The notes beneath the pieces were generated by a model. The model made no database searches. It saw only the letters and a list, made by a program, of their open reading frames with translations, and was not told the origin of the DNA. From Ectothiorhodospira lacustris (GTDB taxonomy: Bacteria; Pseudomonadota; Gammaproteobacteria; Ectothiorhodospirales; Ectothiorhodospiraceae), in NCBI RefSeq assembly GCF_022227845.1, contig NZ_JAJNQN010000002.1:124001-188000 (forward strand): 64,000 nucleotides of DNA, written 5' to 3'. Below, in pieces: positions 53,715 through 63,946 of the stretch. Position numbers and translations under genes: made by a program. Within the stretch, counting starts at the first letter, position 1, and the number at the start of each line of letters is the position of its first letter.

Positions 53715-53993
53715 TCAGTGGTGATCTTCGTAGTTCACGATCTCGGCATCTCCATCCTCGAACCGGAAGGTCACGCGCCAGTGACCACTGACCGTTACTG
53801 ACCATATTCCGGCGCGATTCCCCGAAGGCTGGTGCAGTCGAAGGCCTGGCAGATCCATATCCTTGACATCCGATGCCGCATTCAGCCTGCCGAGAATCAG
53901 TCGAAGCCTCGCGGAATGAGCGGCCTGGATCCCAGCGGTGCTGCCGGAACTGAAAAGTTTGGCCAAGCCCTTGTGCTTGGAGCTTCGAATCAT
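53715..53993 (-). CDS. higB: HigB-type ribosome-dependent mRNA interferase
   Basis: HigB toxins (RelE superfamily) cut mRNA at the ribosome. The 92-residue product matches HigB end to end: MIRSSKHKGLAKLFSSGSTA, then HSARLRLILGRLNAASDVKDMDLPG, and the C-terminal SVTVSGHWRVTFRFEDGDA ending NYEDHH. The ATG at 53993 is chosen by family length; the frame is open further upstream into a repeat. The higA reading frame begins about 10 bases downstream of the stop, which is the usual toxin-first order of higBA. Confidence 0.93.
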   Translation of the reverse strand: MIRSSKHKGLAKLFSSGSTAGIQAAHSARLRLILGRLNAASDVKDMDLPGLRLHQPSGNRAGIWSVTVSGHWRVTFRFEDGDAEIVNYEDHH

Positions 53994-54094
53994 GTTGCGA
54001 ATGCAACCTGCCACGTACCAGGTTTCAATCACACGTGAATGAAGGCCGGCTGTTGGGCACGTCTCCAAGCCCCCAGGTAAACTCTCACTCACGC

Positions 54095-54121
54095 AACTCA
54101 AGAGTGCCTGTCCCTTACTTT
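54095..54121 (+). repeat. 27-bp direct repeat, copy 1
   Basis: Starts AACTCAAGAGTGCCTGTCCC and continues TTACTTT. It lies between yjdM and higB, about 100 bases upstream of the higB ATG. Five more copies lie between 60.0 and 63.0 kb in the same orientation. Confidence 0.88.
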
Positions 54122-54143
54122 TTCGTAGACGTTCCGACGCGGG

Positions 54144-54180
54144 GGGGATGGCAGTGCTCACCGGCACGGCCATGTCCTTC
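54144..54180. repeat. REP-like hairpin repeat, copy 1
   Basis: GGGGATGGCAGTGCTCACC continues with GGCACGGCCATGTCCTTC. It forms a near-perfect hairpin (ATGGCAGTGC with GCACGGCCAT) and is almost the same as 58547-58585, which overlaps the 3' end of fadJ. The two copies bracket the yjdM-fadIJ segment. Confidence 0.75.
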
Positions 54181-60091: not shown

Positions 60092-61957
60092 CTACTCTTC
60101 TTTTTCAAGATCATCTACCTTGGAAACCAGCCCATTCATCTCATCTTGGGTTATCAGGCCACAGACACTCAATACCTTAATACTATCTAAAACCTTCTTC
60201 CTTTTCTCTCTACGCTTAAGGCTGCCGTCATCGAAGTATTCAAGCTCATCCTTATATGGAAGAGTTTGTTCATAAAGTTGATGATAACCCTTTCCAACCG
60301 CCCCTCTAAACTGCACAAGCTCCGGTATCTTGCTACCTATAGAAATAACATGTTGCCGTGATATCCCAGGATAAGGATCGATGTATACAATTTCTTTCAC
60401 CCCTAGCTGATACGCCTTCTTCGCGCATAATTCACATGGGCTTGCTGTGGTGTAGAGCTTTCCACCTAAAATACCTTTACCTCCATATTTCGAAAGCTGA
60501 AGAAAAGCATTTTCCTCCGCATGCAAAGATCTCGTATGAACCTGATTACCTTTACTGTCCAAACTGTTCTTTAAATCTTTAAAGCAGTACGAAAGATTTC
60601 TCCCACTCAACAGTTCCTTACTAGAGGTTAGCGCTGCCCTATGCTCGGCTGCACGAGAACGAAACTCCTTGTCATTTCGTTCATAGTCACTGTAAACAAG
60701 CGGATCGAAGCTATGTAAAAGCCTATCTAAGGATCTTAAAGAGCAAGGAATTTGACCGGACGGAACATCGTTCCATCCCACGGCCTTAATTGAGTTGTCC
60801 GTGTCAGTGATCACCGCTCCAACCTGCCGAGATATACAGCCGGAGTTGGTCTTCGCTGTAAACGCGATCTGCATCACACGCTCCATGGCAGTCGGAGGAA
60901 CCAATCCCGGATGTATCATCAATGATACATACCAAACAATCTGCGACTTCAGAATGTTACTATTGTCCAGTTCATTCCTGGGGTTAAATAGATGGATATC
61001 AGACATTTCAATACAACGCTTGACGTTCTGAGCAACGAAGTCTCCGTCCAAAATGGCCGAGCTACCAGACTCTGCCTCATCTATCTTTTTGATACTGGCT
61101 TCATCAAATTTTCTAACATTTCTGAGGTAGGCGCTCCTATCTTCATCGGGTGCATTGATAGATACAAGATAGAAAGCCGAGTACCGTTCTCTAAAAAATC
61201 TCGCCTCATATGGATTGCGTATGGCATCAATAACCACGAATGCGCTATCAAAAGATTTTCTAAGAATCTTTATTATCCTGTTAATGGTTTCAGGCAGGTG
61301 AAAAATTTGCCCCGGGTCAAATTTAGCACTTTTGTATCCGACAGAAACCCGACCAAGTTTCCGTATAGAGTTTCCTGCAGCTTGATACGTCTCTACATAG
61401 AGGCCAGGGGACATCGCGTCAAGCTCAGCCTTAAATTCATTAGTAAACTTTCTGTAAGAAACCAAACTCCTCAGGATGGATCTCTTAGCCACATACCTTG
61501 GATCAAAGTCAGATTCGTGGTCTAAGACCATCTGAATAACGCGTTTGCTTCTGCCCACATTAATCTTGTTGCCATAGGCAACTGATGACAAAACACCTTC
61601 AATCTGTGCCGCATCAGAGATTCCCGTTGGATCGCACGCTGCCACAAAGCTTGCCAAATCACCTATATCCATTGCGAGTAGGTACGCGGATATGAGGTCA
61701 CTTATTTTTATTGCGAAAAATCTCTTCCAGTTATTTTTGGCATAACAACTAAGCACTTCGTACCGCCTGGAATCCAGTCCGTCATAGAACGCGTTGCACT
61801 TGTATCTTAGGTCGTCCATAGCCGGTATATCAGGCTCGGAAGACTCCATAATTGATGCAGCCGTAGTGCAACCGGAGCCAGTGCGCCCAGTAAGCCCAAT
61901 CACTATGAACTTGCTTCGCTCAAGAAACAGCTTGGACAATGGTGCTACGTCAGCCAT
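60092..61957 (-). CDS. avcD: AvcD-like antiphage dCTP deaminase
   Basis: The 621-residue protein has an N-terminal P-loop domain (IVIGLTGRTGSGCTTAA, residues about 18-34) and a C-terminal deoxycytidylate-deaminase domain with NSGCISRQVGAVI, the zinc site HAE (479-481) and PCELC (Cys508, Cys511). This two-domain layout is that of AvcD, which destroys dCTP/dCMP during phage infection and stops phage DNA synthesis. In the P-loop the usual Lys is replaced by Cys. In known systems an adjacent RNA, AvcI, keeps the enzyme inactive. ATG 61957 has AAGAGG 8 bases upstream; a GTG at 61966 is also in frame. The gene is AT-rich and bounded by two copies of the direct repeat. Confidence 0.88.
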   Translation of the reverse strand: MADVAPLSKLFLERSKFIVIGLTGRTGSGCTTAASIMESSEPDIPAMDDLRYKCNAFYDGLDSRRYEVLSCYAKNNWKRFFAIKISDLISAYLLAMDIGDLASFVAACDPTGISDAAQIEGVLSSVAYGNKINVGRSKRVIQMVLDHESDFDPRYVAKRSILRSLVSYRKFTNEFKAELDAMSPGLYVETYQAAGNSIRKLGRVSVGYKSAKFDPGQIFHLPETINRIIKILRKSFDSAFVVIDAIRNPYEARFFRERYSAFYLVSINAPDEDRSAYLRNVRKFDEASIKKIDEAESGSSAILDGDFVAQNVKRCIEMSDIHLFNPRNELDNSNILKSQIVWYVSLMIHPGLVPPTAMERVMQIAFTAKTNSGCISRQVGAVITDTDNSIKAVGWNDVPSGQIPCSLRSLDRLLHSFDPLVYSDYERNDKEFRSRAAEHRAALTSSKELLSGRNLSYCFKDLKNSLDSKGNQVHTRSLHAEENAFLQLSKYGGKGILGGKLYTTASPCELCAKKAYQLGVKEIVYIDPYPGISRQHVISIGSKIPELVQFRGAVGKGYHQLYEQTLPYKDELEYFDDGSLKRREKRKKVLDSIKVLSVCGLITQDEMNGLVSKVDDLEKEE

Positions 61958-61997
61958 TTGAAACACCTCTTACTCTTTGGACAGATGACTCAGTTTT

Positions 61998-62362: not shown

Positions 62363-62728
62363 TCAGGAGTGCGCATCGCTCACGGAAATCAACATAGAGA
62401 TGCCAGTTCCTTCATTCACCCATTCGTTACAACTGGCTGTCAGTTCGCCCTCACCTTTCCTATCGACGTACATACGCGCCCCGTGGACGAATGTATGGAA
62501 ATCTTTAACTTTTAGACCATCTTCACACCGTAAGTAGTGCCTGAATCCATCAGTCGGCTGCAGCGCACTAAATGAGAGCATCTTCCAATGATCGAATCCG
62601 GGTTCGACCATATTGATTTCAATATCCAGATGGGAGCAGTCCCTTTCAAATTTACTCAAATCAATGGTAGCCAATCTCGCCTCACCGCCATCGATAGTGA
62701 CATTTTTGTAGTCGAATTCTTTTATCAA
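62363..62728 (-). CDS. Unknown 121-residue protein between direct repeats
   Basis: No family was recognised. The sequence is mixed alpha/beta with polar surface (FDHWKMLSFSALQPTDGFRH, GLKVKDFHTFVHGARMYVD) and no signal peptide. The only usable start is a TTG at 62728, one base from copy 5 of the direct repeat; the original start may have been lost when the repeat arose. It is AT-rich like its neighbours and lies between copies 4 and 5 of the repeat. Confidence 0.6.
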   Translation of the reverse strand: MIKEFDYKNVTIDGGEARLATIDLSKFERDCSHLDIEINMVEPGFDHWKMLSFSALQPTDGFRHYLRCEDGLKVKDFHTFVHGARMYVDRKGEGELTASCNEWVNEGTGISMLISVSDAHS

Positions 62729-63045: not shown

Positions 63046-63124
63046 GCCTTAACGCCCGACACATGCGCCGGTTTGGAGCCGCGAAGCGGCGGAAAAGCGG
63101 TCGCTGTGATGCCGTTTGTTAGCA
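63046..63124 (-). mobile_element. attC-like integron recombination site
   Basis: On the minus strand the stretch begins TGCTAAC, which includes the TAA stop of the gene ending at 63119, and ends GTTAAGG. Between them is an imperfect palindrome with an inner stem GCCGC...GCGGC. An outer pair close to the R'' (YAAC) and R' (GTTR) boxes, imperfect arms, a strong central hairpin and a stop codon in the first box are the layout of an integron cassette end. The match to the seven-base boxes is partial. No integrase is in the window. Confidence 0.6.
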
Positions 63125-63946
63125 ACATGGCTCGAAAAGCTCAAAGACCCTACAGTCACTAGAAATGCAGGTTTCCAGTAGCTTTTTTGCGGATGACATT
63201 TTTTCCGGTGAGAAGCACGAAATACCGTTCCTGATAAGATCTCCTTTTGTCAGCATTGCTCGTTTCAATGGAGCAGCAATACAAGCATGATCTGCGTCGA
63301 AGCAAAATATGGGAGTGTCATCATCGTAGTATCTGTCGAGTAATTTGGAGTATAGTGAACGCTCTATCGAGACTTTTGCATTCTGATATTCATCTATGAA
63401 GCCTGGCTCTAGAAAATCGCGTTGCCTATAGTGTATTTGATGTCTCAGCTCCATCAACCATACGTAAACAGGTTTACCCTCTATGGTGTTTGTGGAAAGA
63501 AGGTCGTTCTCACCCACTAAGTCATCAAATATATTAATAACCCCAACATGATCGTTTCGATATCTACTATTACTCCGCTTAAGTGGCGTTTCTCCAGCAC
63601 GAATCTCCCATAAATACTGGGACTGATTCTTTATTAGAGCAAACCCCTTCGCTGCCAGAGATGATCTCAGAAAATAAAACACTGAATAGTAAAATTTCAC
63701 AACAGACCAAGAGTGTCTACCCATTGCAACACTAGCTATACCTTCGCTTAAACTAGCAATACCTTTATAATATAAATCCTCACCATCTTTTAACAATTGA
63801 TCTTTAATGTAGTCTTCATCGCTATGGGAGACCTGATAGCTTTCCAGTTTTGGTCGATAACTATGCCAATTATCAAGATTACTACAGCCAACTGCAGTCT
63901 CAATATATACCTGAACCCGAAATCGATTAAAATTCATATTCATCAT
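63119..63946 (-). CDS. Unknown 275-residue protein, probable integron cassette gene
   Basis: No family was identified. It is helix-rich (DQLLKDGEDLYYKGIASLSE, then HSWSVVKFYYSVFYFLRSSL) and has RHQIHYRQRDF near residue 170, somewhat like the Arg/His motif of HEPN nucleases, but the spacing is one residue short. It has no signal peptide or membrane segment. ATG 63946 is chosen; other ATGs at 63943 and 63937 are possible and no Shine-Dalgarno is seen. Its TAA stop falls in the attC-like site, which suggests it is the gene of an integron cassette. AT-rich. Confidence 0.65.
   Translation of the reverse strand: MMNMNFNRFRVQVYIETAVGCSNLDNWHSYRPKLESYQVSHSDEDYIKDQLLKDGEDLYYKGIASLSEGIASVAMGRHSWSVVKFYYSVFYFLRSSLAAKGFALIKNQSQYLWEIRAGETPLKRSNSRYRNDHVGVINIFDDLVGENDLLSTNTIEGKPVYVWLMELRHQIHYRQRDFLEPGFIDEYQNAKVSIERSLYSKLLDRYYDDDTPIFCFDADHACIAAPLKRAMLTKGDLIRNGISCFSPEKMSSAKKLLETCISSDCRVFELFEPCC

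Follow-up and report, generated by a model that had tools for sequence, protein, structure and literature searches.

In V. cholerae, V. parahaemolyticus, and E. coli ETEC, AvcD is described as forming a pair with an inhibitory RNA, AvcI, and for this Vibrio/ETEC type the inhibition is said to be lifted once a phage stops transcription (PMC10511110; PMC12409362). The words P-loop and Walker are absent from PMC9455884, and these words and PLK are likewise absent from PMC10511110. The locus considered here lies in a 64,000-nucleotide stretch of Ectothiorhodospira lacustris DNA, referred to below as the window. An original prediction, made from the letters of this stretch, had assigned one of its genes to an antiphage dCTP deaminase resembling AvcD of Vibrio and E. 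coli, with a P-loop that lacks its usual lysine. The analyses described below place the gene in its family, relate the two domains of its product to known folds, and weigh the ways in which the protein might be regulated.

Gene and Family Membership

The gene forms a complete open frame on the minus strand (60092..61957), in which the ATG lies at 61957, the stop codon ends at 60092, and no stop interrupts the 621 aa in between. A ribosome-binding-like stretch, AAGAGGTG, was recognized by reading the sequence 6 nt 5′ of the ATG (61964..61971, minus strand). The GC content of the gene is 0.442 versus 0.647 for window positions 1-58700, where the lowest-GC stretch of 1866 bases (in steps of 100) has a value of 0.528; the foreign, AT-rich segment that had been predicted is thereby borne out, at about 44% GC for the gene and 65% for the window. 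A search of the organism's own genome with the query protein returned one match, the protein itself.

The query scores 419 bits (E 2.2e-125) with the NCBIfam model NF041025, "anti-phage dCTP deaminase," for which the curated cut-off is 400, and the match spans profile positions 1-437 of 437. It also matches the PADLOC dCTPase model (E 1.4e-144), and the only Pfam model to exceed its cut-offs is that of the deaminase domain (PF00383, E 7.4e-16). The query exceeds the NF041025 cut-off by a narrow margin, and other long-form members (defined below) remain under 400 bits, two of them at 393 and 380 and the loci L206-L208 at 393, 385, and 377; the proteins from E. coli AW1.7 and ETEC reach 449 and 470 bits, a single model thus calling both branches of the family. 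Together with the motifs, these matches uphold the predicted assignment to the anti-phage dCTP deaminase family, with a P-loop domain and an intact HAE/PCxxC site. The sequence comparisons argue strongly that the query is a long-form member of this known family and make a strong case for its catalytic reading, and we infer that the protein would itself carry out deamination and phage defense.

Long and Short Branches

The family comprises a long form, with a median open frame of 594 residues and the motifs HAEENA...PCELC, and a short form, mostly of about 490-590 open-frame residues and with the motifs HAEM or HAEV...PCxxC. The E. coli AW1.7 protein shares 57% identity with the query over 571 columns, and the ETEC protein shares 23%. 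In the tree, the query nests with long-form proteins, in a six-member group that includes the AW1.7 protein (local support 0.984), and it does not group with the ETEC/short-form protein. By these comparisons, the query and the AW1.7 protein belong together in the long-form branch, and the Vibrio/ETEC AvcD type is not the nearest one; the predicted match to AvcD of Vibrio and E. coli holds for the family but not for the branch.

In a tree of the deaminase domain, whose root is uncertain, control sequences separate the long from the short branch, and support for the long-form node is 0.1. When a profile of six short-form proteins, led by the ETEC sequence, was aligned with the long-form profile by hhalign, a probability of 100% was obtained over query residues 221-579. 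This alignment and the shared layout favor a single origin of the two branches.

The ETEC protein used here, WP_000951932.1, is probably the ETEC AvcD of the literature. The dCTP deaminase of E. coli AW1.7 is said to be among those shown to defend in the work of Tal et al. in 2022; our literature search returned no link between the AW1.7 deaminase and tested defense. A DNA search of 5426 E. coli genomes with the query identified 42 with a match, 34 of them over at least half of the query, both AW1.7 assemblies included; in the other 8 the match spans just 18%. The ETEC gene matched 57 genomes, none of them AW1.7, in a search that a diverged short form would escape.

Sampling for Conservation Counts

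A genome scan with a long-form alignment confirmed 528 relatives, of which the best 80, that is, the nearest ones, were sampled. Of these 80, 76 entered the set of 106 long-form rows, together with the query, 7 annotated records, and 22 of 23 phage-contig loci of nearly full length; 5 of 103 loci, in which no ORF passed the filter, were left out (L101, L103, L107, L112, and L137), as were the partial deaminase matches L138-L194. Excluding L048, which lacks its N-terminus, and L052, which has no P-loop in frame, leaves 104 rows, 101 of them distinct. The mixed alignment has 41 rows, with a P-loop present in 20 short-form rows; in the short-form set, L210-L212 passed no filter and L209 is without its N-terminus. 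The alignment for structure prediction contained 72 sequences. Prophage-like copies of the long form come from IMG/VR and from E. coli chromosomes.

A P-Loop without the Walker A Lysine

The P-loop of the query, read from the sequence and its translation, is GLTGRTGSGCTT (residues 21-32; 61862..61897, minus strand). As predicted, the Lys of GxxxxGK[ST] is absent, and its place is taken by Cys30 (codon 61868-61870, minus strand). A profile of 16 long-form N-termini puts Cys30 under the Lys of solved dephospho-CoA kinases, with matches to 2grj (GVTGKIGTGKST, E 5.7e-4) and 1jjv (GLTGGIGSGKTT, E 0.04).

Among the 104 long-form rows (drawn in large part from the best 80 of 528 relatives), this column holds Cys in 100, Ser in 2, Val in 2, and Lys in none, and the same rows have Arg25 in 101 cases and Ser or Thr at position 31 in all 104. 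Lys is also missing from the column in each of the 20 short-form rows, where Leu (6), Val (4), Arg (3), Ser (2), Met (2), Phe, Ile, and Pro (1 each) occur instead; a Lys follows one place later in 7 of these rows, and Gly29 is found in only 7. The P-loop Lys is therefore missing from all 124 readable rows (104 long, including those from the best 80 of 528 relatives, and 20 short). On this evidence, the long-form branch as a rule carries Cys where Lys would stand, and this copy is no exception, so that the notion that the exchange sets this gene apart was not sustained. The P-loop of the ETEC protein reads GFAGCGMKT.

The Kinase-Like Front Domain

The AlphaFold model of the query has a mean pLDDT of 90.1 and a pTM of 0.89, with residues 473-477 under 50. 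Together with VIA-align and the P-loop profile, it delimits an NMP-kinase-like P-loop domain at residues 17-348 (60914..61909, minus strand). In VIA-align, where rows that differ by no more than 1 count as tied, this part of the model superimposes on 3lw7_B, an AMP-bound adenylate-kinase-related protein (Z 14.6, rmsd 2.2, 169 aligned). The best 15 Foldseek matches are dCMP-type deaminases, and a dephospho-CoA kinase appears at rank 49. In this confident model, the query would thus be an NMP-kinase-like domain fused to a dCMP-deaminase-like domain.

Conservation in the front domain extends beyond the P-loop. In 72 long-form rows, the residues of a GxxxR motif are kept in 69 (G195) and 72 (R199) cases, and D244 and R247 are invariant (72/72). 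R199 is also found in all 20 long and 18 of 20 short rows of the mixed alignment, in which position 247 is Arg in 20 of 20 long rows and Lys (19) or Arg (1) in the 20 short rows, and hence basic in 40 of 40. We take G195/R199 and D244/R247 to correspond to the adenylate kinase monophosphate motifs GDMLR and DGFPR; the structural alignment gave residue ranges rather than pairs, and the matching of R199 and R247 to 3lw7 is by these motifs. A profile of residues 188-332, searched against PDB sequences, retrieved weak unrelated names and no kinase, profile A2 reached 3lw7 at an E of 0.02 only, and an N-terminal profile of four sequences gave nothing below E 0.25. We infer that the conserved R199 and R247 would bind a monophosphate. 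The pattern of kept and lost residues suggests that the front domain still binds monophosphate while phosphate transfer is gone; its fold would be that of a kinase which has given up phosphate transfer and presumably now regulates the deaminase.

The Deaminase Domain

The dCMP-deaminase-like zinc domain (residues 354-571; 60245..60898, minus strand) is assigned by the PF00383 match and by VIA-align, in which residues 354-550 superimpose on 4p9e (Z 14.8, rmsd 2.2, 124 aligned) and residues 354-571 on 2w4l_E (Z 14.6, rmsd 3.9, 159 aligned). It contains the HAE zinc and proton-shuttle motif at residues 479-481 (60515..60523, minus strand), kept in 106 of 106 long-form rows, and a PCELC zinc motif at residues 507-511 (60425..60439, minus strand). 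H479, E481, and C511 are found in all 106 rows and C508 in 105 (drawn, as before, in large part from the best 80 of 528). Elsewhere, a plasmid copy from Geminocystis (L027:3980-5863) has Trp for the first zinc Cys (PWELC), and because of this replacement its deaminase may be dead or altered.

Four further cysteines, Cys315, Cys374, Cys405, and Cys458, are present in 106 of 106 long-form rows of the same sample, in large part from the best 80 of 528; the short rows have no Cys at 315, 405, or 458 and a Cys at 374 in 9 of 21. Cys374 and Cys405 align with Cys19 and Cys49 of the phage T4 dCMP deaminase (1vq2), which we take to be ligands of a second, structural zinc, and it is therefore plausible that long-form proteins have a second zinc site.

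Local Context and Spread of the Gene

In two genomes of the same genus, the left-hand block matches the window up to 58701 (G002, 98%) or 58598 (G003, 99%), and identity of about 98% resumes on the right at window-equivalent 65002 and 65241, respectively; in each relative, the two blocks belong to separate contigs. Since the flanking blocks match both relatives and the stretch between them does not, the roughly 6.3 kb in question are, by this comparison, variable relative to G002 and G003. Besides the deaminase gene, this stretch contains an SDR gene, for which nine other genomes of the genus gave no match at E<=1e-60, and a pair of group II intron D5/D6 relics. An ORF of 121 aa that belongs to no known family and a gene with a weak HEPN match are also present, as is a DGQHR/DndB-like gene immediately past the window end. 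The intron relics (domains V/VI) sit just 3′ of the deaminase gene at 60012-59930 and 59762-59688 (minus strand; 39.2 and 35.5 bits, Rfam gathering score 40). The 121-aa ORF (62363-62728, minus strand) has no match at E<=0.1 in Pfam, NCBIfam, or PADLOC and is bordered on each side by a copy of a 17-base repeat. The HEPN-like gene (L034:3620-4447, window-equivalent 63119-63946, minus strand) reaches a sub-threshold 16.7 bits with HEPN (cut-off 22) and overlaps the DGQHR/DndB-like gene (L034:4428-5474, window-equivalent 63927-64973, minus strand; TIGR03187, 118 bits, cut-off 58.85), and the pair is a possible further defense or toxin–antitoxin unit.

The 17-base repeat, TCAAGAGTGCCTGTCCC, presumably a REP-type element by its looks, occurs in six copies on the plus strand (54098, 60017, 62051, 62303, 62733, and 63003) with 0-1 mismatch, where 0.22 would be expected; all six have the same orientation, and five lie within the foreign stretch. 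A HigB/RelE-like toxin gene (53715-54173, minus strand; Pfam PF05015, 54 bits) lies in a separate low-GC dip. At the same right-hand border, G002 carries a different gene, of 461 aa (L221:338-1723, minus strand), with a borderline HNH_5 score of 26.6 bits against a cut-off of 27.5, and the insertion site may therefore be a hotspot.

The family is patchily distributed. At class level, 5 of 369 genomes have a match at E<=1e-30, 3 of them over the cut-off, and at phylum level 19 of 398 at E<=1e-40, 11 over the cut-off, the query's own genome being counted in both; the three genomes of the wider taxonomic family with a match over the family cut-off all carry the short form. Elsewhere the long form adjoins integrase genes, plasmid copies occur too, and in two E. 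coli records the gene lies beside genes read as a P2-like prophage. Upstream of such E. coli prophage loci (L032:5077-5120 and L033) is what we take to be the 3′ end of ssrA (tmRNA), an attachment site. None of 56 matching phage genome records reaches 80% coverage, and these records contain no near-full-length long-form copy. In Vibrio nereis and V. intestinalis (L036 and L059), the gene is preceded by what appears to us to be an integron-like attC, and it may therefore travel as a cassette in these two vibrios. The AW1.7 locus (L223) and that of Erwinia persicina (L042), each with a tRNA-Phe gene nearby, are 98% identical over 450 nt upstream and 99% identical in the gene, which is a sign of recent transfer between the two genera.

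Alternative Explanations

Four other readings of the locus were weighed. The Walker A residue is normally Lys, which would favor regarding Cys30 as a private mutation or a mark of gene decay in this genome, but the occurrence of the same Cys in 100 of the 104 readable long-form rows (of which 101 are distinct, from several phyla according to the records, and in large part from the best 80 of 528) and a wholly open query frame leave this reading with practically no credence. Only slightly more credible, and still very improbable, is a housekeeping dCMP deaminase: the C-terminal domain does have a clear dCMP-deaminase fold, but the model for the housekeeping enzyme ComEB gives 36 bits against a cut-off of 219.45, a kinase-like domain is fused to the deaminase, the gene lies in foreign DNA, and nothing above the family cut-off was found in nine other genomes of the genus. 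Four control deaminases (one T4-like and three from genus genomes) also fall outside the 21-member long-form group, at a node with a support of 0.1 and an uncertain root. The original prediction had named a grouping with housekeeping dCMP deaminases as the result that would speak against it; instead, ComEB is far under its cut-off and the query nests among long-form proteins. It is, further, quite improbable that the front domain has kept its kinase activity, with Arg25, or in some short forms the Lys one place later, taking over from the missing Lys. The strong conservation of Arg25 and Ser/Thr31 in the long-branch loop and the next-place Lys of some short-form rows favor a substitution of this kind, but much of the loop is lost in the short branch, as the scarcity of Gly29 indicates, and Arg25 is no obvious substitute since 2grj carries Lys both in its P-loop and at the Arg25 place. 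Arg25 standing in for Lys had been considered as the main reading and was dropped, a kinase with an intact P-loop also being basic there.

A more serious contender, though a doubtful one, is that the query is the toxin of an AvcID-type (type III) pair, held by an unstable upstream small RNA and released at phage transcription shut-off. Relatives in the AvcD family are described as AvcI-paired in PMC10511110 and PMC12409362, and some long-form relatives have common upstream sequence without explanation. When 98 upstream stretches (up to 350 nt) were compared with each other by BLAST, conserved blocks were found, and of the seven groups inspected four (B, C, D, and G) share sequence of this unexplained kind. 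AW1.7 and Erwinia are 73-74% identical to Yersinia over 223 nt adjoining the gene, L041 and L126 are 75% identical over 77 nt adjoining the gene and 78% within it, and further upstream-similar sets are L053/L054, L073/L079/L080, L045/L047, L040/L081, L072/L074, and L076/L091. Against this reading, inspection of other conserved upstream blocks pointed to integron-like sites, to an attachment site, or, in two marine species, to the frame of an integrase. The Yersinia upstream identity is below the coding identity of 89-90%, upstream similarity is below coding similarity among the eight enterobacterial members compared, relatives with 76-81% coding identity to AW1.7/Erwinia have no upstream match to them, and the other pairs among the eight have none at E 1e-3. 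In the query, the repeat lies 93 nt upstream of the ATG, and the 120 nt upstream fold no better than shuffled sequences (z 0.52). Fourteen chosen stretches, 10 long-form and 4 short-form, were folded as single strands; nine of the long-form ones gave z values of -0.6 to 2.1 and one gave -2.15. The four short-form stretches, that of ETEC included, gave 0.14 to 1.13, without a signal, and BLAST among 21 short-form upstream stretches returned one chance-like pair only. Both tests are thus blind in the short form too, so that their failure to reveal an AvcI-like RNA beside the long-form gene means little. Rfam at its gathering threshold found nothing within the window.

Small upstream frames are a separate matter. 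A small ORF or an open frame ends within 90 nt upstream in 42 of 98 long-form loci, and no common sequence was recognized by eye in these 98 loci beyond close relatives. In 5 of 21 short-form loci (L031, L195, L197, L215, and L216), upstream ORFs of 57-78 aa have a common C-terminal pattern ending in W (for example, ..ASKLDW, ..ASKIDW, and ..AQKLTW); if these are translated, the short-form antitoxin region may also encode a small protein.

Proposed Mechanism

The sequence, family, domains, fold model, conservation, and foreign context set out above are those of what is probably an anti-phage dCTP deaminase of the long form, encoded within a short segment of foreign DNA, with a zinc domain that would drain the dC pool and a front domain that would act as a non-catalytic regulator. 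During phage infection, the C-terminal zinc domain would most likely convert dCTP and/or dCMP to uracil forms; the dC pool would be drained, and phage DNA synthesis would fail. The N-terminal NMP-kinase fold, in which Cys stands in place of the Lys for phosphate transfer, retains a glycine-rich loop and basic residues at the expected monophosphate place. Having presumably lost its kinase activity, it would most likely bind a nucleotide or an inhibitor and hold the deaminase off until infection provides the trigger. A more specific version, for which we see a slim chance, is that the retired monophosphate kinase is itself the infection sensor, the ATP-handling Lys being lost and the arginine pocket kept, such that rising dNMPs from host DNA breakdown would activate the deaminase. 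If this were true, the long branch would need no RNA antitoxin, unlike AvcID.

Comparison with Known Systems

For this genome, the gene is otherwise ordinary, one more foreign defense gene at a variable site. More generally, proteins of at least two distinct branches go under a single family name, and the interest of this member lies in the role of its front domain. The closest counterpart, the long-form protein of E. coli AW1.7 (WP_045268677.1), has the same P-loop, GLTGRTGSGCTT, and the same two-domain layout, and its gene adjoins an integrase gene; it differs from the query in its length of 576 aa, about the last 45 residues of the query being missing from it, and in the insertion site and neighbors of its gene. 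The short-form protein of E. coli ETEC H10407 p58 has the family model, the zinc motifs, and Cys374 in common with the query. It is 89 residues shorter, however, its P-loop differs, counterparts of Cys315, Cys405, and Cys458 are missing from it, and a small ORF lies directly upstream of its gene. Among single-domain proteins, 3lw7 (UPF0200/adenylate-kinase-related, Sulfolobus) shares the fold of query residues 17-348 at 18% identity but has only some 180 residues and no deaminase domain. Conversely, the T4 dCMP deaminase, which serves the phage's own nucleotide supply, shares the deaminase domain and is without the kinase-like domain.
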